Source of the DNA: a virus
DNA length: 23,158 nucleotides
IMG/VR virus record: IMGVR_UViG_3300046007_009966
Location: 1 to 23,158 of that record
Reading direction: 5' to 3' (one strand)
Shown here: positions 1,212 to 20,449 of the stretch, piece after piece
Position numbering within the stretch: position 1 is the first letter of the stretch
Layout: every line of letters begins with the position of its first letter
Made by a program: the position numbers and the translations under genes
Notes under the pieces: model-generated
Databases searched by the model: none
What the model saw: only the letters and a program-made list of their open reading frames with translations
What the model was told of the DNA's origin: nothing

Positions 1212-2000
1212 TTATTTTTTTATTTTACCAAAATATTCGCTATATTTTGTTCTTGCTTTTTGTTGGTCACTATCTTCTAGTTGATTAAATATGTTTTTTA
1301 ACTTAGTCATATCGTAATAACTATCACCTTTTTCATATTGTTTAATGGCAAATTCTAAGTTATCAAATGATTTAAAATTTTCTTTTAAAAGATTTTTAAG
1401 TTCTTCTTTAATCATTTCTTTTAACTCAGATTTTTTCATTTTAGTGTTAGGTGGTAAAGTTTCACCTGAAGAATAAGGTTGTCCTTTTTTACCTTTAGTA
1501 ACCTGGTTCATAAAAGATGATTTTATTTTATCTGTAATAGCATCTTCACTTACTGATTCTTTTTCTTTTACTGAAAAATCAATACCAGCATTATCCATTA
1601 CAGTTTTGATTATTTTTTTAGTTACATCTTTTGCAGGATTAGTTCCTTTAGGAAAAACAATACTATCATCTTTAACAGTATATTTTAACAAATTAGGTTT
1701 ACTGGTAAGTGATTTAACTAAGTCATCAATTGCTTGTTTTGTTTTAATAGGGAATGTTTTGCCTAGTTTTTTTTCTAAAGCTTTTTTCTTAACAGGAACT
1801 GATGGACCAAAATAATCTTCTATTGCTTTTTCAATATTGGACTTATTTCTCATATTTGAAATATAAGAACCATAGTTATCTAGATTTTCTAAAGCCTCTA
1901 CTGCTTTTTTAATGTCTGATTTTGGAGTTAGAATTATATCATAATCCAAAGCCAATCTGGATTGAGAATCTTCTTCGTTTTCTCTTAATTTATATTTCAT
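1212..2000 (-). CDS. Lysine-rich protein of unknown function
   Basis: The protein has 262 residues, is very rich in Lys, Glu and Ser, has no membrane segment, and I do not recognise it. The middle contains repeated helical stretches (residues about 30-100) and a short beta-like part (LLKYTVKDDSIVFPKG). Near residues 193-210 there is an amphipathic segment, ELKEMIKEELKNLLKENF. It resembles the N-terminus of the 121-residue baseplate-module protein (FKKIIKEAVKEAIQEEL) and the short leaders of neighbouring enzymes, so it may be a shared docking or processing element. The start (ATG at 2000) lies inside the last codons of the HAD phosphatase gene (11-base overlap), implying translational coupling. 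The length and lysine richness would suit a virion-internal or DNA-associated protein, but this is inference only. Confidence 0.6.
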   Translation of the reverse strand: MKYKLRENEEDSQSRLALDYDIILTPKSDIKKAVEALENLDNYGSYISNMRNKSNIEKAIEDYFGPSVPVKKKALEKKLGKTFPIKTKQAIDDLVKSLTSKPNLLKYTVKDDSIVFPKGTNPAKDVTKKIIKTVMDNAGIDFSVKEKESVSEDAITDKIKSSFMNQVTKGKKGQPYSSGETLPPNTKMKKSELKEMIKEELKNLLKENFKSFDNLEFAIKQYEKGDSYYDMTKLKNIFNQLEDSDQQKARTKYSEYFGKIKK

Positions 2001-2535
2001 ATTTTTTTAGTTGTTGTATTGTATCTTGTGTATTTTTATGTAGTATTCCTATCCCACCTTGTGATACCCATTGTTCAATGTTGTCAAGACGGTCGTCGAT
2101 AAGTATTTTATTCCTTCCAGAATAATTCTGTTTTTTATCAGCTGCTGCTAAAATTAAAGGAGTTCCAGGAATGTTGTTTTTAACCCATAATCTTTTTCCT
2201 AAACGAGAAGCTGGTTTTCTAGATGGGGCTGATAATAAAGTTGGTTGTTTGTCTTTGATATAATCCCAAAGTTGTTTTCCGTCTGGCATCCAAGGAATGC
2301 CAACCCAAAATTTTACTTTATTTTCTTCATCAATAAAATTCCAAAACTTTTCTATACCATATTTGGTTTGGTATTGAGCAGCTGATAATTTTTCAGGATT
2401 TAAATCTTTAAATCGTTTATCAAAATCAGCTAAAACTCCATCCATATCACAATAAATTTTGTATTGTGGTCCAGGAGTAGCTGTTTCTTCCTCTTTAATT
2501 TGTTTGTATATGTTTGTTAACTTAAGTCTATACAT
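1990..2535 (-). CDS. HAD-superfamily 5'(3')-nucleotidase-like phosphatase
   Basis: Residues 27-38 (KIYCDMDGVLADF) are HAD motif I, with the nucleophile Asp30 and acid/base Asp32 in the form typical of 5'(3')-deoxyribonucleotidases. LLSAPS (100-105) is a plausible motif II. Lys residues near 115-135 could supply motif III, and KILIDDRLDNI (143-153), with Asp147/Asp148, is motif IV. At 181 residues it has the usual size for the small nucleotidase family, which dephosphorylates (deoxy)nucleoside monophosphates; phosphatase activity on nucleic-acid ends is an alternative. Before motif I there is a 25-residue extension (IYKQIKEEET) not needed by the HAD fold; see the leader-peptide finding. It overlaps the nucleotidyltransferase gene by 8 bases. 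The fold call is strong; the substrate is not known. Confidence 0.8.
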   Translation of the reverse strand: MYRLKLTNIYKQIKEEETATPGPQYKIYCDMDGVLADFDKRFKDLNPEKLSAAQYQTKYGIEKFWNFIDEENKVKFWVGIPWMPDGKQLWDYIKDKQPTLLSAPSRKPASRLGKRLWVKNNIPGTPLILAAADKKQNYSGRNKILIDDRLDNIEQWVSQGGIGILHKNTQDTIQQLKKYEI

Positions 2536-3727
2536 TTTTTATACCATCCTCCCAGTTACGTAACATCATGTTTCCTTTTTCGTATGCTTCTTTTTCAATT
2601 TCAGGTAAATCTCCATCCTCATTTGTGTTAGTAGTAGTAATATTGTTTAATCTACCTTCTAAATTTTGCATGTGATGAATCATTTCATGAGAAAATGAAC
2701 GTAAAATATCTTTTGAATGTCTACCAAAAGTATATAACGTAATAGATTTATCGGCTGGGTTGTAATGAGCTGTTTTACCTAGTATTTTAGAAGCATTTTC
2801 TTCATCATTGTTTATAAATTTTACTTTAGGTAATGGCTTAATGTTTAGACCATTCTTTAACATATATTTTGATAAAGATAAAATACTTTCTTTTAAATCT
2901 GAAGTTTCTTCAAATACTTCTTTTACAAATGTTTTTGCGTATTCGTTTAATCCAAAAGGATCTGATTTTTCTTTTACTGGAGCAAAACCTGAACCGTAAG
3001 GCAAAGCTGTACCTGCTTGTGGGTCAGATGCTTCTTCTAAATCAGGATTATTATCATGTCCACATTTGTGGCAAACATATAAATCATCTCCACCATCTGC
3101 TATTTTCCATTCCCAACCACAATTATCACAAATTATGTCTGTATTTGTTACTACTTCTATTATTTCTTCTTCTTTAACAATAGGAGAAACCATATCCCAT
3201 ATTTGTTCTTTTTCTTCAATGTCTGGGATTAGTTCAAAAAATTGTTCTTTATCTTTTAATTTTAAAGCTTGTCTTGCTTTAGTTCCACTAACACCACCTG
3301 GAGTGGTAATTATTTTGAGTACAATATTAGGGTATTTATCTAAAGATTTAGTTCGGTTTTCAATATCGGCTAAATCACCTTCATTTCCTTCTCTAGCACC
3401 TAATACCCAATAAATTTCTTCTTCAGGGTTTTGTTTAGCGTAATCAAAAACTGATTTGATTGGTGAAAAAGATGGTTCTATTTTAACTTTTGGGGAAAGA
3501 TATTTTTTATAAATGTCCCATATTTTAATTGATTCTTCTTGAGTAATATTATCCCTTACACCTCCTCCAACATATATGATAAGTTCATCTGCGTCAGAAA
3601 AGTCTTCTAAAGCATTTTTAACTACCTCAAAATGTCCTTTAGTAGGTGGTTTAAATCCTCCCACATAAATGATTACTTTCTTTGAGTAGTCTTCTTCAAA
3701 TAATATTTCTATAATAGAATCTATCAT
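2528..3727 (-). CDS. Nucleotidyltransferase / zinc ribbon / HExxHH peptidase-like fusion protein
   Basis: This 399-residue protein contains three parts. Residues about 17-185 form a cytidylyltransferase/NMN-adenylyltransferase-like Rossmann domain: the nucleotide-binding loop GGFKPPTKGHF (23-33) holds the (T/H)xGH signature, and GVSGTKAR (145-152) matches the ISSTxxR-type motif. Residues 200-222 form a zinc ribbon (C200, C203, C219, C222). The C-terminal part carries SHEMIHHMQ (346-354), an HExxHH zinc-metallopeptidase signature, with Glu376/378/380 downstream as candidate third ligands. The N-terminal domain suggests transfer of a nucleotide to a phosphorylated metabolite, such as NAD or CDP-alcohol synthesis. 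Nucleotidyltransferases of this type are, from memory, common in marine T4-like phages. The N-terminus (IIEILFEED) precedes the fold and looks like a leader. It starts in an ATGA overlap with the upstream gene. The domain calls are firm; the substrate is unknown. Confidence 0.78.
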   Translation of the reverse strand: MIDSIIEILFEEDYSKKVIIYVGGFKPPTKGHFEVVKNALEDFSDADELIIYVGGGVRDNITQEESIKIWDIYKKYLSPKVKIEPSFSPIKSVFDYAKQNPEEEIYWVLGAREGNEGDLADIENRTKSLDKYPNIVLKIITTPGGVSGTKARQALKLKDKEQFFELIPDIEEKEQIWDMVSPIVKEEEIIEVVTNTDIICDNCGWEWKIADGGDDLYVCHKCGHDNNPDLEEASDPQAGTALPYGSGFAPVKEKSDPFGLNEYAKTFVKEVFEETSDLKESILSLSKYMLKNGLNIKPLPKVKFINNDEENASKILGKTAHYNPADKSITLYTFGRHSKDILRSFSHEMIHHMQNLEGRLNNITTTNTNEDGDLPEIEKEAYEKGNMMLRNWEDGIKNV

Positions 3728-4068
3728 CTAAGTTTTTGGATTCTTTCTTTAGCTAATTTTTTCTTTTCGTCGATGCCTTTTTTAGCTTCTCTAAATTCAT
3801 TCATAGCTTCTTCAACTTCTTTCATCATCATATCATATTCTTTAAGAGCATCATTTGCATGACGGTTAGCTTCAGATTTGTTTTTGTAAACACCTTTAAC
3901 TTCTTCCATTTTGATTTCATCGAATACGGTAGCTTCATATACCATACTTTCTTTGGTTACACCTTTACCAGGTTTTTTAACTACAAAGAATTTTCCGATT
4001 TCATCTACTGGTCCTTCTTTAATATCTTTTTCTAATTCGCTTTCTTTTAGTAAGTCTAATAATTTCAT
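3724..4068 (-). CDS. Small charged coiled-coil protein
   Basis: This 114-residue protein has an N-terminal leader (MKLLDLLKESELEKDIKEG) and a short beta-rich centre (KFFVVKKPGKG, MVYEATVFDEI, KGVYKNKSEANRHA). It ends in a long charged helix (residues about 75-114), probably a coiled coil. No catalytic motif is visible and I do not recognise the family. It sits between the kinase and the nucleotidyltransferase, sharing ATGA overlaps with both, so it is made from the same message and might be a partner of either enzyme. The (L)KE triplet at residues 7-9 fits the T4 prohead-protease consensus. Confidence 0.6.
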   Translation of the reverse strand: MKLLDLLKESELEKDIKEGPVDEIGKFFVVKKPGKGVTKESMVYEATVFDEIKMEEVKGVYKNKSEANRHANDALKEYDMMMKEVEEAMNEFREAKKGIDEKKKLAKERIQKLR

Positions 4069-4826
4069 TTGTTTATAAATTTGGTGATTTTTTGTTGTGC
4101 TTGTTCTAATGTATCAAACTCTGGTTGGTTATTAAGAGATTGTTTTATATCTGAATAAATCTTTTCTGATTCTACTTTTGATTTGGCTTTTTCCTCAGGT
4201 GATTTTTCTTTACCTATTTGTCCTAAAGGTTCAATGTATGTTTTATAAATGTATTCTTCATCAAAGCTTTTATCAGCATCTTTAAGGTCATTATTTAATA
4301 ATATAAAATCATTACCAAAAACTTGTTTATACGTGTCTATACTTTTATTTACATCACGCCAAGAACGAATCACGATACTCGGCAACAATGATCTGTCTCG
4401 CTTCATATTACGTTCTAGTGAGGTAATAGGCGACACATAAGTCATTAGCATCAAAGTATCATAACCTAAATCTTCTAATTCTTGTTTTTTCTTTAATAAA
4501 GTTTTTGGTGAACCTCCTACGCTATCAATTAATAAATTTTTAGCATCTTTAGTAGCGTTTTGGAATTTAACGTCTGTAGTTTTTCTAGCTTGACCCATTA
4601 ATTCACCTGCTTTTTTTAATTTATCAGGTGACATTTGAGCTAACTTCATACCAATGCCTGAGGATTTAAGTAATTCCTCATAGGTATCATCTACATTTAT
4701 TGTTATAAAATTGGATGGGATTAATTGTTTTGAAACAGTTGATTTACCTGATCCTGCTGGACCTGCCATAAAAATAGCTTTGGGTTTACCTTGTATTTCT
4801 TTTAATAGAGAGACTAGTCCAATCAT
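4065..4826 (-). CDS. P-loop kinase, zeta-toxin/polynucleotide-kinase-like
   Basis: The 253-residue protein has a Walker A loop, AGPAGSGKST (21-30), preceded by a hydrophobic strand (KAIFM). It is followed by ITINVDD (41-47), where paired Asp residues occupy the usual substrate-binding place of zeta-toxin and polynucleotide-kinase folds. LMLMTYVSP and the Arg-rich stretch RNMKRDRSLLPSIVIRSWRD resemble the core strand and lid of that superfamily. The family phosphorylates UDP-amino sugars, nucleosides or 5'-OH nucleic-acid ends; which applies here cannot be read. The first ten residues (MIGLVSLLKE) lie before the first strand and look like a leader. A HAD phosphatase and a nucleotidyltransferase follow downstream, so an end-repair or nucleotide-salvage set is possible. 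The upstream gap of 34 bases holds a CATAAATA element. Confidence 0.75.
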   Translation of the reverse strand: MIGLVSLLKEIQGKPKAIFMAGPAGSGKSTVSKQLIPSNFITINVDDTYEELLKSSGIGMKLAQMSPDKLKKAGELMGQARKTTDVKFQNATKDAKNLLIDSVGGSPKTLLKKKQELEDLGYDTLMLMTYVSPITSLERNMKRDRSLLPSIVIRSWRDVNKSIDTYKQVFGNDFILLNNDLKDADKSFDEEYIYKTYIEPLGQIGKEKSPEEKAKSKVESEKIYSDIKQSLNNQPEFDTLEQAQQKITKFINK

Positions 4827-4839
4827 GGAAACAATTTGT

Positions 4840-4847
4840 CATAAATA
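4840..4847 (-). promoter_or_regulatory. TATTTATG element before the kinase gene
   Basis: The minus strand reads TCATATATTTATGACAAATT between the nuclease stop and the kinase ATG, one mismatch from TATTTATA, with 13 bases to the ATG at 4826. TATATTTA here is also within one base of the Bacteroidetes -7 consensus. Confidence 0.3.
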
Positions 4848-4860
4848 TATGAAAAAGAGT

Positions 4861-5643
4861 TTATATTTCCAAATTTCTTTTTACTGTAGTTTTAAATTCT
4901 GTAAATACAGGAGCCTCATTAGGGTTTTCTAAATCAAATAATCGTTTTACTGTTTTAAAGATTTCAATGTTTTCCTCTTGTGTACGAGATGGCAAAATCA
5001 TTTCCCATCCTTTACCTTGCATTTTATCTTTTGAACCTTTACGTTTTGTTGATTTTAACCATAAAATACCAGTACGATCAGGTTTAACACCAAAACACTC
5101 TTCATAACAATGAGCATAAACTGCTGCTTGTAATTCATAAGTTGTTTGAATATGGTTTGATGTTTTATGATCAATAATCCAAAGTTCGTTATTAATTTTA
5201 CAAACCAAATCTGTTGTACCTGCTACTTTAAGTGTGTCTGAAAATAAATGGATTTCTTGATCTATTAATTCAGGTTTATATGTTTCCCAGAAATCAACAA
5301 AACGTAAAAACATTTGCCAGATGTCAGGGTTGTATTGAGGATTACCCCATTCATTTAGAAAACTCATTTCTTTACCTTCTAAATATTCTTCAATCATTTC
5401 ATGAACTTTGGTTCCATCTTCGGCTGCTTTACGAACAATATAGTCAGCTGAACGACCCATATTTTTAAGCCATTCTTCAAAATGTTTACCTTTAGGGTAA
5501 GAACCTAAAACGTGAGTTATAGAAGGATAATATTCACCATTTCTTCTATAATAACGAGAATCAGGTAATGTAATTTGTTTATAATCTTCAGAAATTTCTA
5601 ATATTCTGTTGTTTACATGTTTGATGTTTCTTTTTTTATTCAT
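4861..5643 (-). CDS. PD-(D/E)XK nuclease, RecB/Cas4-like
   Basis: The 260-residue protein contains the ordered motifs of the RecB/Cas4-type exonuclease fold: GTKVHEMIEE (77-86, with His81), QEIHLF (129-134, Glu130), GTTDLV (142-147, Asp145), IIDHKTS (156-162, Asp158 and Lys160) and LQAAVYAHCY (171-180, the Q-xxx-Y motif). The His, Asp and Asp/Lys residues would bind the metal and cut DNA. The four-cysteine iron-sulfur cluster of Cas4 and AddB is absent. It starts in an ATGA overlap with the primase stop, so it is very likely cotranslated with the primase and acts in phage DNA replication, recombination or host DNA breakdown. Length is normal for stand-alone phage members. Confidence 0.85.
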   Translation of the reverse strand: MNKKRNIKHVNNRILEISEDYKQITLPDSRYYRRNGEYYPSITHVLGSYPKGKHFEEWLKNMGRSADYIVRKAAEDGTKVHEMIEEYLEGKEMSFLNEWGNPQYNPDIWQMFLRFVDFWETYKPELIDQEIHLFSDTLKVAGTTDLVCKINNELWIIDHKTSNHIQTTYELQAAVYAHCYEECFGVKPDRTGILWLKSTKRKGSKDKMQGKGWEMILPSRTQEENIEIFKTVKRLFDLENPNEAPVFTEFKTTVKRNLEI

Positions 5644-6578
5644 ATTGATAACTTTTTTCCTAACAATTCTGAAAATGTTAGGGGAGTTGTTTCTTGTATT
5701 AATTTAGTAAAATGTTCAAATCCCATTTCACTTGGGTCTTTATCTTTCATATTTACTAAATAAATTTCTTTACCTTCATTCATCAATTGCTCACAAAATG
5801 ATAGAGCTTGTTTTTGAGCATCTTTATCTAAAGCTATATATATTTTTTCTACACTAGACATTACAATCTTTTTCATCAAATTTGATTGTATGTTTTTACC
5901 TAATAATGGAATAACATTTCTCTTAATAGCAATGGCATCAAATGGTCCTTCACACAATATGATAGGCAAATCCCAATTTATAAATATTTCAAATGGTATG
6001 ATGTTACGAGAAACTGTTGGATTTTTATATTTTCTTTGAGTTTCTTTTTCAAATGAACGACCTGTAAAATAATTTAATTCTCCATTTTCATTGTAAGAAG
6101 GAATTATAATTGTGTTTTTGTAAGGTCCTGATTCACAATATCCAATATTGTATTTTAAAATATCTTCTTCACTAATGTTTCTAGATTTGGCATAAGATAA
6201 AGCATGTCTTCCTATAATGTCTAATTTCTGAATATTGGTTAATGATTTAAATTCTTTAGGTAAAGAAACCTTTTCAATTACATTTTCTTGTTTATCGTAA
6301 GGATTAAAATATTTAATAATGGTTTTTAATTCAGCCATTTTTTCAGGTGAGGCTGTTTTTTGTTTAAATACTTGAATTATTTTTTTACCCTTTTTATCAC
6401 AAGCCCAACAATGCCAAGGATTCTCTCCTTTTTGGTTTTCAGTAAAATTGATTTCTAACTTAGGTTTATGGTGGTTACAGAATGGACAACTATAAGCGTA
6501 GTTACCTCTTGCTGTTGGTTTACCATTACCTAATACAGAATTGACTAAGGCAATCAGTGGTTGATTGAGCATAACCAT
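5640..6578 (-). CDS. DNA primase (zinc finger plus Toprim)
   Basis: The 312-residue protein has an N-terminal zinc finger (C31-P-F-C34 and C57-W-A-C60), as in DnaG- and T7 gp4-type primases, for reading the template start site. A linker leads to a Toprim domain: ILCEGPFDAI (207-216) gives the catalytic Glu210 and Asp214, ALDKDAQ (249-255) gives the DxD pair, and KDKDPSEMG (278-286) is the usual third acidic motif. It would make RNA primers for lagging-strand synthesis with a separate helicase, which is not in this window. The size is close to that of T4 gp61. ATG at 6578 is preferred; another in-frame ATG lies two codons later. The start follows a hairpin at 6592-6611. Confidence 0.9.
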   Translation of the reverse strand: MVMLNQPLIALVNSVLGNGKPTARGNYAYSCPFCNHHKPKLEINFTENQKGENPWHCWACDKKGKKIIQVFKQKTASPEKMAELKTIIKYFNPYDKQENVIEKVSLPKEFKSLTNIQKLDIIGRHALSYAKSRNISEEDILKYNIGYCESGPYKNTIIIPSYNENGELNYFTGRSFEKETQRKYKNPTVSRNIIPFEIFINWDLPIILCEGPFDAIAIKRNVIPLLGKNIQSNLMKKIVMSSVEKIYIALDKDAQKQALSFCEQLMNEGKEIYLVNMKDKDPSEMGFEHFTKLIQETTPLTFSELLGKKLSI

Positions 6579-6591
6579 AATGTAATAAAGA

Positions 6592-6611
6592 AAGCTTGGT
6601 TTCCCAAGCTT
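6592..6611 (-). terminator. Perfect 8-bp hairpin with GAAA loop, terminator-like
   Basis: On the minus strand the arms AAGCTTGG and CCAAGCTT enclose a GAAA tetraloop (GNRA type), and the 3' side runs into TCTTTATT. It sits 21 bases after the stop of the 121-residue gene and 13 bases before the primase start. It could end the upstream transcript partly, or protect or process the primase message. The U-run is interrupted, so a strong terminator is not assured. Confidence 0.5.
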
Positions 6612-6632
6612 AACTAAATATTTTTTACTTTA

Positions 6633-6998
6633 TTAAATAGTATCATCTATACCATATATTAATTTAGCAGGTATAGTCATTTTGTAGTTATTTTTAAATT
6701 CATCATAACTCATAGGTCCCTCAATATCAAAATCCTCTGTTGAAATTTCCTCTCCTAATTCATTTTGTATTAAATCAGCTAATTGTCCTTTAGGTATGTC
6801 TAAATTAGATTCATCATTTGATGTAAAAACCATTTTTAGTGAAGGATTCATAATATCATCATTTTCTACATCCCAAATTAATAATACATAATCTTGTGGG
6901 GTTTTATGTGTGATCATACCTCTTTTTTCTAACATTTTATTAGCTTGGGTTTCTGTAATTAAACCTGCTAGTTTTTGCATTCTTATAAAATCTTTCAT
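6633..6998 (-). CDS. Small acidic protein of unknown function with leader-like N-terminus
   Basis: The 121-residue protein begins MKDFIRMQKLAGLITETQ, an amphipathic helix ending in ITE (14-16), like the leaders of the next two upstream genes. The remainder is acidic (DVENDDIMNPSL, DFDIEGPMSYDEF) with mixed alpha/beta character and no cysteine pairs or catalytic signature. The start is preceded by A-rich sequence and a TATAAATG-type element on the opposite strand at 7015-7022. I recall similar 'QKLAGLITE' N-termini in small proteins of marine phages but know no function. Being short and acidic, it may be a regulator or packaged accessory protein; that is a guess. Confidence 0.6.
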   Translation of the reverse strand: MKDFIRMQKLAGLITETQANKMLEKRGMITHKTPQDYVLLIWDVENDDIMNPSLKMVFTSNDESNLDIPKGQLADLIQNELGEEISTEDFDIEGPMSYDEFKNNYKMTIPAKLIYGIDDTI

Positions 6999-7014
6999 TT
7001 TGTTGTTTATTTTT

Positions 7015-7022
7015 TATAAATG
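7015..7022 (-). promoter_or_regulatory. CATTTATA element before the 121-residue gene
   Basis: The minus strand reads AAACATTTATAAAAAATAAA, with 16 bases to the ATG at 6998. It is a one-mismatch member of the recurrent element and overlaps no coding sequence. Confidence 0.25.
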
Positions 7023-7025
7023 TTT

Positions 7026-7229
7026 TTAGTTGTCATTATAGACATCAATCATATTTTCTAATACAGTTATTACATCTTCATATGTAACTGATGAATTTTT
7101 AACTAGATTATATATTCCTTTCATTAATTCCATTTGTTCTTTAGAAAGACTATTTACATCCTCTTTGATAATAGAATTAGCAGTAATCTTGTTTTCTATT
7201 AAGTATTTTTTTAAATCAAAATTGCTCAT
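7026..7229 (-). CDS. Short protein with FDLKKYL leader (copy 2)
   Basis: This 67-residue protein opens with MSNFDLKKYLIENKI, nearly identical to the start of the gene just upstream. After the leader the sequence is helical (EQMELMKGIYNLVKNS, YEDVITVLENMIDVYND) and unrelated to its neighbour. No functional motif is visible. The start ATG follows the upstream stop by 12 bases in an A/T-rich leader without Shine-Dalgarno. The conserved reading frame and the duplicated start argue that it is real despite its size. Confidence 0.6.
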   Translation of the reverse strand: MSNFDLKKYLIENKITANSIIKEDVNSLSKEQMELMKGIYNLVKNSSVTYEDVITVLENMIDVYNDN

Positions 7230-7241
7230 ATTTTTGTTTTG

Positions 7242-7481
7242 TTATAAACTACTAATTAAAGTATCCCATTTTCTCCCATCCCATCCTTTAACAGTATAGT
7301 CTTTTATATTTTTTTCATCAATAAAATTAAATAATTCTTTTAAATTTTTAGACATTAGTGTATTAGATTCTTTCCCAGGAACCATCCATTCTAACATAAA
7401 TTCATTATATTTAGCTTCGGTTAAAGTAGTTTCCTTTAATCTATTTTCTACTAAATATTTCTTTAAATCAAAATTATCCAT
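7242..7481 (-). CDS. Short protein with FDLKKYL leader (copy 1)
   Basis: This 79-residue protein opens with MDNFDLKKYLVENRL and then has LKETTLTEAK, giving two (L)xE triplets (LVE 10-12, LTE 20-22). The body (YNEFMLEWMVPGKESN, FNFIDEKNIKDYTVKGWDG) looks like a small alpha/beta domain of the kind that displays an argument through 'YTVKGWDGRKW'; I do not recognise it. It is the first gene after the terminator-like hairpin of the homing endonuclease and has an exact TATTTATA element 14 bases before its ATG, so it may start a new transcript. Confidence 0.6.
   Translation of the reverse strand: MDNFDLKKYLVENRLKETTLTEAKYNEFMLEWMVPGKESNTLMSKNLKELFNFIDEKNIKDYTVKGWDGRKWDTLISSL
7446..7481 (-). repeat. 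Duplicated 12-codon leader (partner at 7194-7229)
   Basis: The first twelve codons of the two adjacent short genes match closely in DNA as well as protein: both read AATTTTGATTTAAA from the third codon, followed by nearly identical codons for KKYL-(V/I)-EN. The remaining coding sequences are unrelated. This looks like a modular start reused on different proteins, or a duplication whose bodies have diverged fully. Confidence 0.6.
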
Positions 7482-7506: not shown

Positions 7507-7539
7507 AAAAAAAAAATTAAGATACAAAGTCTTTATATC
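7507..7539 (-). terminator. Hairpin plus T10 run, terminator-like
   Basis: On the minus strand GATATAA and TTGTATC (one G-U pair) can form a seven-pair stem around AGACT at 7539-7521, overlapping the last codons of the homing endonuclease. The stop TAA follows, and then ten T residues (7516-7507). This is the form of a weak intrinsic terminator and would insulate the endonuclease gene from those downstream. Confidence 0.45.
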
Positions 7540-8197
7540 GAAAAACAAATCCTTTAATATGAATTTTATTACCTTTTAAAACTTCACATATGTTACCTTT
7601 ATTTAGATTTAAAACTTCACTTGCTTCTGATAATGATTTAAATTCCATTCCGAATAAAGTATCACAAATAATAGGTTTAAGTCCTTTTCCTATTTTATTT
7701 TGTGTAATTTTTTTACTTATTTCTTCTTTTTTATTTTTCCATACTTCTTTCATCATTATAGAAAGATTGTCTTTATGTTCTTGAGTTCTTTCATAAGATA
7801 AACCACAACCCTTTTCTTTTAAAAAAGCACTATGTTCAGGACGAGTTTTACCTTCCCAAACTCCTTTTCTACCTTTTAATCCTTTTGAGTGGTTTTTCCT
7901 CCATTGTTCATCTTTATAACCTTGTATTCCTCCTTTTGATGTTGAATTAAGTCCTTTTTTATAACTATCGTAATATTCAATCCAATATGTTTCTCTTTCA
8001 GATAAATGTTCTATTATACATTCTTCAAGGATTTCTTTTTTATGATTTTTCCAACCGTACTTATTTAAAGAATTTTTAAATTTTTTACCACTTCCCGAAT
8101 TATATTTGTGTCCTTTTTCCCAACGATCTTCTATATTAGTAGATTGACCTATATATATTTTACCTTTTGGGTTTGTAATTTTATAAATACCTATCAT
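7517..8197 (-). CDS. GIY-YIG homing endonuclease with NUMOD-like repeats
   Basis: The N-terminal nuclease domain has GIY at residues 3-5, YIG at 15-17, Arg25 after the DRW turn, the metal-binding Glu69 in ERETYWIEYY, and Asn84 in GLNSTSKGG. Residues about 95-125 (KNHSKGLKGRKG, KTRPEHSAF) match NUMOD3-type DNA-binding repeats. Residues about 187-221 (FKSLSEASEVLNLNKGNI, then VLKGN and IKGFVFRY) match a NUMOD1-type helix-turn-helix. This is the make-up of free-standing Seg/I-TevI-like mobile endonucleases. ATG at 8197 is chosen over the TTG one codon upstream; the protein has 226 residues. It lies between the tail module and the small-gene cluster, has a higher lysine content than its neighbours, and carries its own terminator-like hairpin, all fitting a mobile insertion. 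Confidence 0.88.
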   Translation of the reverse strand: MIGIYKITNPKGKIYIGQSTNIEDRWEKGHKYNSGSGKKFKNSLNKYGWKNHKKEILEECIIEHLSERETYWIEYYDSYKKGLNSTSKGGIQGYKDEQWRKNHSKGLKGRKGVWEGKTRPEHSAFLKEKGCGLSYERTQEHKDNLSIMMKEVWKNKKEEISKKITQNKIGKGLKPIICDTLFGMEFKSLSEASEVLNLNKGNICEVLKGNKIHIKGFVFRYKDFVS

Positions 8198-8201
8198 CAA
8201 T

Positions 8202-19677: not shown

Positions 19678-20084
19678 TATGTAAATGTTACTTGTATATT
19701 ATCGTTAATTCCTGTATCTTTTATTGAGTATTTTAAAACCACATCCACTGTATTATAGTCTTCACTAGGAATAATATTTAAAGCTTCTACTACAACACTT
19801 GGAAAGAATTCAATAAGAGATTCTTGAATGTTTAATTTTAAAGAATCTAAATTATTTGTAGTTATTTGTTCAAATATAAATCTTCTTAAATTTCCACCAA
19901 ATAAAGGATTTAAATATCTTTCTGGTTGGTTTGTTAAGAAAAAATTAATTAGATTATATTTAATAGATTCTTGAGTAGTATAAGTTGTTCTAAATACACC
20001 AGGAGCATTAAAAGGCAAAGCAATTCCAACACCAACACTTGGTTTAGTATCTAGAGGGAATATTTTTTTAGCACCAAATGCCAT
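19677..20084 (-). CDS. 25: Baseplate wedge protein, gp25/GPW family
   Basis: At 135 residues it is the size of T4 gp25 (132). FFLTNQPERYLNPLFGGNLR is the family signature (L-x-T-x-x-GERxxxPxFG-x-x-L), followed by RFIFEQITTNNLDSLKLNIQ, SLIEFFPSVVVEALNII and VDVVLKYSI, the usual C-terminal helix and beta-hairpin. gp25 is the lysozyme-like-fold protein that clamps gp6 and starts sheath assembly on the baseplate. TAATG overlaps occur on both sides: with the 121-residue protein upstream and gp6 downstream. Among the most secure calls in the window. Confidence 0.9.
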   Translation of the reverse strand: MAFGAKKIFPLDTKPSVGVGIALPFNAPGVFRTTYTTQESIKYNLINFFLTNQPERYLNPLFGGNLRRFIFEQITTNNLDSLKLNIQESLIEFFPSVVVEALNIIPSEDYNTVDVVLKYSIKDTGINDNIQVTFT

Positions 20085-20449
20085 TATTTACCCATTAAAC
20101 TCATTATTTGATCTAGTCCAACTTGTCCTTCAGGTAAAGCTCCGTTAACAGTGTCAACTGATTTTGGTTGAAAATTTCCTGCATAAGCAGAATTTGCTGT
20201 TCCTCCGTTTTGCATTTCTTCTAAAATATTACCAAACATTGCTTGTCTTTCTGCAGGGGTTAGTTTTCTAGGTGATTCAATATGTGGTTGAGCATAAGTT
20301 CCTTTTGATTCTGTTACGGTACCAAAACCATTACCAGCAGGAACAATTTTAGGGGCCTTAATAGCTTCCAATAGAATGTCTTTCAATTCTTCTTGAATAG
20401 CTTCTTTTACTGCTTCCTTAATAATTTTTTTAAAATCTGATGGTTTCAT
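20084..20449 (-). CDS. Baseplate-module protein with amphipathic N-terminal helix
   Basis: This is a 121-residue protein. It opens with a long amphipathic helix (MKPSDFKKIIKEAVKEAIQE, then ELKDILLEAIK) that holds several (I/L)-x-E triplets. A Pro/Gly/Asn-rich, probably disordered middle follows (KIVPAGNGFGTV, QNGGTANSAYAGNF), and the end is a short helix, GLDQIMSLMGK. RKLTPAERQAMFGNILEEMQ is a second helix. This layout suits a scaffold, chaperone or proteolytically processed assembly factor. By position next to gp25 it could take the place of T4 gp26 or gp51, but there is no sequence evidence for either. It has an exact TATTTATA element just upstream. Confidence 0.65.
   Translation of the reverse strand: MKPSDFKKIIKEAVKEAIQEELKDILLEAIKAPKIVPAGNGFGTVTESKGTYAQPHIESPRKLTPAERQAMFGNILEEMQNGGTANSAYAGNFQPKSVDTVNGALPEGQVGLDQIMSLMGK

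Follow-up and report, generated by a model that had tools for sequence, protein, structure and literature searches.

Known proteins packed inside the head of a T4-like phage include IPI, IPII, IPIII and Alt of T4 itself. Each has an N-terminal propeptide of 10-19 residues, with hydrophobic residues at positions 4, 7 and 8 and a Glu at position 10, and each is cut by the gp21 protease after (I/L)-x-E (PMC9026906). In IPIII, this leader is both necessary and sufficient for packaging, with residues 4 and 7 acting as targeting determinants and residues 8 and 10 as processing determinants (PMC9026906), and the leader is the sole part that Ip1-3 have in common (PMC12373910). Here, we describe seven proteins with short leaders of this kind in a stretch of 23,158 nucleotides (IMG/VR record IMGVR_UViG_3300046007_009966, positions 1 to 23,158; “the window”), which covers 23 kb of a record from a T4-like myovirus. 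These N-terminal segments are very probably capsid-targeting propeptides: the cargo would be drawn into the prohead, freed by a gp21-type protease, and held in the head until it enters the host with the DNA. The computed support comprises leader conservation in the register of the T4 capsid-targeting sequence (CTS), detachment of the leader from the fold, leader swaps, likeness to the scaffold tail, a protease in relatives, and leaders on proteins detected in virions. A first-pass annotation of this DNA had likened the leaders to those of T4 and proposed that the enzymes are packaged; the IPIII register, the enrichment in the gene block, the protease in relatives, and the scaffold-tail match all support it.

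As in T4, a gp21-family protease is encoded, here in relatives of the phage, and one leader stands on otherwise unrelated proteins. Unlike in T4, the cargo consists of nucleotide- and nucleic-acid-acting enzymes in a conserved gene block, there are several leader families, and one of these matches the scaffold C-terminus, a match that T4 gp22 does not show. The phiKZ-like phage SPN3US also carries propeptide-targeted ejection proteins in its head that are matured by a gp21-family protease, but the propeptides of SPN3US and phiKZ mostly exceed 100 residues; no scaffold-tail leader is described in the accessible portion of that paper (PMC5694885). The phiKZ cleavage motif, S/A-x-E, differs as well (PMC9026906). 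Also comparable are two T4-like cyanophages, S-CREM2 and S-SCSM1, whose virion cytidylyltransferase (leader MKNFSSFLTE) and NMNAT (leader MKSFLQFLKE) belong to the same nucleotidyltransferase superfamily as a window protein and are likewise encoded near a primase gene. They differ in their cyanobacterial host and in having leaders of the T4 type, not the scaffold-tail type; also, they were detected in virions by mass spectrometry. CTSs are already known from T4, while a leader resembling the scaffold tail and so broad a range of cargo appear to be new; a literature search of open-licence papers found no description of scaffold-tail leaders.

The leader-bearing proteins

The main genes of the window all lie on the minus strand, as do the seven leader-bearing proteins described below. 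Their order is baseplate genes (gp6-like, gp25-like), primase, PD-(D/E)XK exonuclease, P-loop kinase, a 114-residue protein, a nucleotidyltransferase fusion, and a HAD phosphatase. Among cultured phages, the closest by its baseplate protein is the 160-kb Flavobacterium phage immuto (46.6% over the gp6-like protein), which has primase, exonuclease, nucleotidyltransferase fusion and HAD phosphatase and, further on, terminase, portal, prohead protease, scaffold and major capsid protein. A close relative, the 165-kb environmental contig G002, has the same order, kinase and a 79-residue protein included. The order kinase, nucleotidyltransferase, HAD is kept even in Pelagibacter phage HTVC008M, where the kinase leader is MIPFILKE.

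All seven N-termini singled out in the first-pass annotation, each a short helix in which (I/L)-x-E occurs, are present as described; the gene starts are predicted. The kinase (4065..4826; 253 residues) has a zeta-toxin/polynucleotide-kinase fold (Pfam Zeta_toxin, 3.5e-10; Foldseek zeta toxin and polynucleotide kinase), and its leader, MIGLVSLLKE (residues 1-10; 4797-4826), would be cut after E10. Next to it, the 114-residue protein (3724..4068; fold unassigned) starts with MKLLDLLKE (4042-4068). The fusion protein (2528..3727; 399 residues) combines an NMNAT/PPAT-like nucleotidyltransferase (Foldseek NadD/CoaD, E to 1e-7) with a Zn-ribbon-like segment and an HExxH domain behind the leader MIDSIIEILFE (3695-3727; N-terminus MIDSIIEILFEE). 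The HAD protein (1990..2535; 181 residues) resembles NT5C deoxyribonucleotidases (phrog_2643 5'-3' deoxyribonucleotidase, 8e-26), with N-terminus MYRLKLTNIYKQIKEE and leader MYRLKLTNIYKQIKE (2491-2535); a sequence search against solved structures gave no match for it. The other three are small: a 121-residue protein (6633..6998) with the leader MKDFIRMQKLAGLITE of type D at 6951-6998, which is related to the C-terminal tail of the scaffold, and proteins of 67 residues (7026..7229; MSNFDLKKYLIE at 7194-7229) and 79 residues (7242..7481; MDNFDLKKYLVE at 7446-7481; same-leader homologue in G002), whose leaders are both assigned to type A by the type A hidden Markov model (HMM). A Pfam search of nine large proteins from the leader block and related loci assigned no function.

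The kinase, fusion and HAD proteins may work within minutes of the start of infection, with nucleotides, cofactors like nicotinamide adenine dinucleotide, or nucleic-acid ends such as those of RNA as putative substrates, or they may counter host defence. The fusion protein ends in a conserved HExxH domain (residues 338-356, SHEMIHHMQNLEG) that is found in homologues 361 to 1230 residues long. H347, E348 and H351 are invariant in it, and its sequence makes it a probable metallopeptidase.

Leader, fold and chance

In 31 aligned kinases, which share 31-83% identity with the window protein, M1, L4, L8 and E10 of the leader are invariant alongside the Walker A residues, I2 and L7 are conserved in at least 90%, and the P2 position between L8 and E10 varies freely. 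Judged from the alignment, this register is that of T4 IPIII, the putative cleavage Glu included. Several features of a T4-type CTS are found here: a short N-terminal extension, a terminal (I/L)-x-E, hydrophobic residues at 4 and 7, and processing residues at 8 and 10. The other window leaders show a similar spacing shifted along the chain or are of other types. The AlphaFold models place the leaders of the kinase and the fusion as low-confidence helices (2-12 and 2-9) ahead of confident folds. In the kinase, the mean pLDDT is 50 for the leader helix at residues 1-10 and about 90 for the rest, and the fold begins at about residue 16, so the leader is a short extension before it. In the fusion, residues 1-10 have a mean pLDDT of 45, and residues 1-11 are of low confidence except for residue 8. 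Since the leader residues are conserved as strictly as the catalytic ones and yet are unpacked on the modelled fold, the pattern would fit recognition by a partner.

Of course, Lys/Glu/Leu-rich N-termini yield (I/L)-x-E often, and the shared stretches could be functionless remains of recent paralogy. Outside the block, about 12% of proteins have the triplet at these positions. It is also found in 40/46 members of the PD-(D/E)XK exonuclease family (window 4861..5643, minus strand; phrog_298, 3e-47), used here as a false-positive control, where it is part of the fold in the conserved NRILEIS. The triplet is therefore not usable as evidence by itself, a caution that the first-pass annotation had voiced, and it was dropped as a sole criterion. 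Enrichment in the block nonetheless goes far beyond composition, as that annotation's proposed alignment of N-termini was meant to reveal. In immuto, 15 of the 33 proteins in the syntenic primase-to-capsid block have (I/L)-x-E within residues 7-16, compared to 24/206 elsewhere (P=1.6e-5), while 2,000 composition-preserving shuffles of the block gave a mean of 4.0 and a maximum of 11. G002 is similar, with 17/36 against 24/184 (P=1.3e-5). The density per position is about 4% in residues 1-20 of block proteins and 1 to 1.5% elsewhere. For the stricter form PHI-x-x-PHI-PHI-x-E, the counts are 12/33 compared to 13/206 in immuto (P=1e-5) and 8/36 compared to 8/184 in G002 (P=0.0012).

The same holds family by family. 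Unique N-termini carry the triplet in 30/32 kinases, 34/36 nucleotidyltransferases, 19/20 HAD proteins and 27/27 homologues of the 114-residue protein, and each count exceeds all 1,000 shuffles; for the 27 distinct kinase leaders, all with [IL]xE, the shuffles average 6.8 and peak at 17. The triplet is in no unique N-terminus of the neighbouring 189-residue protein (0/21) or of the leaderless DnaG-type primase (0/51; window 5640..6578, minus strand; phrog_47, 1e-42), which serves as negative control and synteny anchor. Shuffles that preserve composition never attain the observed counts, and kinase residues L4, L8 and E10 stay invariant down to 31% identity, which indicates selection, not recent descent. 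Chance is already refuted for the kinase, nucleotidyltransferase, HAD, 114-residue and type D leaders, though not for single small proteins, and as a general account it is next to negligible.

Leader swaps and the scaffold tail

Leaders change while the protein behind them stays the same. The kinase of L067 has MPKDFNVHEWNKKRYLGEA in place of MIKL..LLKE. In the 114-residue family, a short leader (MKLLDLLKE, or MKLLDLLNE in homologues) alternates with the long MKLTDLRKLILEELANIQEE, and HAD proteins begin with MYKLTDLYKQLKEE, with MIKLKELLEE (L050, L054, L065), or with LADLLLEE (immuto). Conversely, the MNxLTKxLI leader precedes the nucleotidyltransferase domain, the HAD domain (L025, L047) or the Zn-ribbon segment (G001, L068). 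In seven genomes, four leader-type profiles find 15, 15, 15 and 7 N-terminal carriers, on 12, 11, 12 and 7 unrelated mature families, with rare internal matches; the type A HMM accounts for 15 N-terminal matches on 12 unrelated families and none inside a chain.

One leader type resembles part of a known head component. The scaffold is the open reading frame (ORF) that immediately precedes the capsid gene; in 71 relatives, it mostly starts M.NRDLLKEAIADAK and mostly ends K.PI(I/L/M)E..(N/D)..F.R(W/M/F)Q.LAG(I/L). Scaffold-like leaders open the 121-residue window protein, as given above, and immuto protein 188 (MKKQILSEQFRRMQKLAGIITES). Among 5,286 unique ORFs, an octapeptide pattern matches 67 scaffold C-termini, 19 N-terminal leaders from 17 unrelated families, and 5 places elsewhere, three of which resemble truncated scaffolds; permuted control patterns give 0 matches in the same set. 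A PHI-x-E site follows in 19/19 of the leaders. An HMM built from scaffold C-terminal tails only, run over 6,903 ORFs, finds 79 scaffold C-termini, 23 N-terminal leaders (RMQKLAGIITE) and 2 others at an independent E-value (i-E) below 1, with 17 leaders below 0.01; an L219 protein that shares the N-terminus of the 121-residue protein matches at 0.0036. Because a tail-only model finds almost only scaffolds and N-terminal leaders, the type D leader, RMQKLAGI(I/L)TE, is on sequence grounds related to the scaffold tail and differs in carrying an additional cleavage site, a relation that gives no direction of copying. Types A, B and C were considered as scaffold-derived too and rejected; their profiles are unconvincing against the scaffold (best about 2 bits), and type D alone matches. 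The immuto scaffold (L083:25626-26867) has an internal duplication in which GFEQWLDSVSAQMDKFGKNNPTIQAIEKAV... occurs twice.

Two further proteins of the window, both on the minus strand, bear type B segments. In the 262-residue protein (1212-2000), residues 188-208 (1377..1439; MKKSELKEMIKEELKNLLKEN) form a complete type B leader, Met included, inside the chain, which might reflect the fusion of two genes that each had a leader, or the presence of a C-terminal propeptide. Its type B HMM match (i-E 1.3e-6) is not independent, the segment being one of the ten seed sequences of that HMM. The other, a 121-residue protein of the baseplate cluster (20084..20449), has the N-terminus MKPSDFKKIIKEAVKEAIQEE, matched by the type B HMM; its type B-like long helix, MKPSDFKKIIKEAVKEAIQEELKDILLEA, is conserved at the start in five genomes, and its membership in a packaged set is uncertain.

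Taken further, one could imagine a modular packaging code, in which several distinct N-terminal tags, at least one of them evolved by copying the scaffold C-terminal tail with a protease site added, have each been joined to many proteins that are otherwise unrelated. Each genome would then have at least a dozen enzymes and effectors that enter the head by way of different contacts with the core and are injected to act as infection begins. We hold this broader proposal tentatively, at a little under an even chance.

Protease, virions and delivery

A gp21-like protease, which the first-pass annotation had said to look for, is encoded in those relatives whose sequence extends over the head region: immuto, whose protein matches the phrog_207 head maturation protease (6e-53), and G001, G002 and G006, recovered with the immuto protein as query. 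No homologue was found in eleven other contigs searched, which are fragments, and a PF03420 search gave no match in the window record but none in control genomes either, which makes it uninformative. Sites of the same kind occur in the immuto protease N-terminus (VLIET...QLTEG), in the scaffold N-terminus (LLKEA), and near residue 60 of the capsid protein (QLVTEA). Small proteins beside the protease gene (immuto 199 and 202; L188 and L218) have type A-like or type B-like N-termini, and the T4 counterparts in that position are gp67 and gp68. T4 gp21 itself has a comparable site, LIE-9, near its N-terminus (PMC9026906).

These small genes between portal and capsid raise the question of whether leader-bearing proteins belong to the prohead core and, like gp67 and gp68, are degraded in maturation and never delivered; gp21 does indeed cleave the core proteins of T4 into pieces (PMC9026906). 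Against this, the kinase, nucleotidyltransferase and HAD proteins have an enzyme fold and conserved motifs, and members of the nucleotidyltransferase superfamily are still there in the mature virions of two cyanophages. Degradation in the core is accordingly a poor candidate, with only a slim chance of being correct.

The cyanophage virions are informative in other ways. The published virion proteome of S-CREM2 (PMC10665884, Table 3) includes non-structural proteins such as the cytidylyltransferase, an S-adenosylmethionine (SAM) hydrolase, an APH-like kinase, ORF13 and a Cas9-like protein. Besides the cytidylyltransferase, the SAM hydrolase (MKDFDSFLEE), the APH-like kinase (MKRFDAFLTE) and ORF13 (MKDLHSFLTE) have T4-type leaders. 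Among non-structural proteins encoded outside the structural region, the T4-register motif is found in 4/14 of those detected, compared to 1/159 undetected ones (P=1.3e-4), a value that is not blind, as the motif was set from IPIII data but after the S-CREM2 sequences had been seen. The PHI motif compared to all S-CREM2 virion proteins is not significant (P=0.24), plausibly since a leader is not needed by proteins of the tail and baseplate. In S-SCSM1, several genes flanking that of the virion NMNAT are annotated as virion proteins. A scan of viral contigs with the S-CREM2 nucleotidyltransferase yielded a single locus. The authors of both studies proposed packaging or co-purification for the virion enzymes (S-CREM2: PMC10665884); neither paper mentions a leader in its accessible parts. 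In T4, the register motif is found in 4/273 called proteins; IPII, IPIII and gp24, which gp21 is known to cut, are among the four.

Some observations stand beside these. The virion-detected, Cas9/Csn1-like ORF12 of S-CREM2 (L122:7704-10313) has RFASFMAE|AA near its N-terminus, which suggests a packaged nuclease. The 54-residue gp61.1 of T4 (L126:18966-19130, minus strand) starts MKTFKEFIKE in the IPIII register and, from its sequence, may be an unrecognised T4 internal protein. In Synechococcus phage Bellamy, the annotated start of gene 170 (L132:100-1287) lies downstream of the S-SCSM1 leader position; leaders may be lost in databases through such start-site misannotation.

Several points weigh against packaging, besides the unblinded S-CREM2 comparison and the triplets of the exonuclease fold and of proteins outside the block. 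The window has no head genes, and the protease is seen in relatives only. Gene 182 of immuto, syntenic to the kinase, has no recognisable kinase homology, and no triplet adjoining the fold was found in the HTVC008M nucleotidyltransferase. Homologues that keep the fold and lack the leader, which the first-pass annotation had named as a refutation, do exist: the nucleotidyltransferases of immuto, L036 and L057 lie behind a domain of about 288 residues, and that of phage SP27 has no leader; most homologues, with the triplet in 34/36 N-termini, keep it. Co-purification could account for the enzymes, as the S-CREM2 authors note (PMC10665884). The virion proteomics that the annotation had called for is found for a same-superfamily nucleotidyltransferase with a T4-type leader in two T4-like cyanophages, and a literature search found neither virion proteomics nor cleavage data for this clade. 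Finally, a type B segment starts a baseplate-cluster protein.

The last two points suit the view that the leaders are uncut helices which dock the proteins to some other complex of late infection, such as the replisome, the membrane or a baseplate assembly, so that the proteins stay in the producing cell; amphipathic helices can, after all, dock anywhere. Such docking does not explain why the register is identical to that of IPIII down to the cleavage Glu, why type D resembles the scaffold tail and has a PHI-x-E site in 19/19, or why equivalent leaders are on virion-detected proteins of S-CREM2 and S-SCSM1. We regard it as improbable.

Under the capsid-targeting reading, the leader would bind during assembly to the core of the prohead or to the inside of its shell, the RMQKLAGI(I/L)TE leader probably binding the scaffold tail's own partner (coat or scaffold). 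It would draw in the kinase, the nucleotidyltransferase-metallopeptidase fusion, the HAD nucleotidase and the small proteins; the gp21-type protease would cut after (I/L)-x-E, and the released enzyme would remain in the head and enter the host alongside the DNA. Packaging in this phage is strongly inferred from the genes; we infer cleavage as well, and injection by T4 precedent. If this is true, packaged and injected proteins of unassigned function become predictable from sequence alone across abundant uncultured T4-like phages, yielding a list of likely first-contact effectors. It would also explain the nucleotidyltransferase in cyanophage virions and point to the scaffold tail as a possible source of targeting peptides.

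Directly upstream of the leader gene cluster, the window encodes a GIY-YIG homing endonuclease (7517-8200), read from a TTG or an internal ATG, and G002 has one in the same place.

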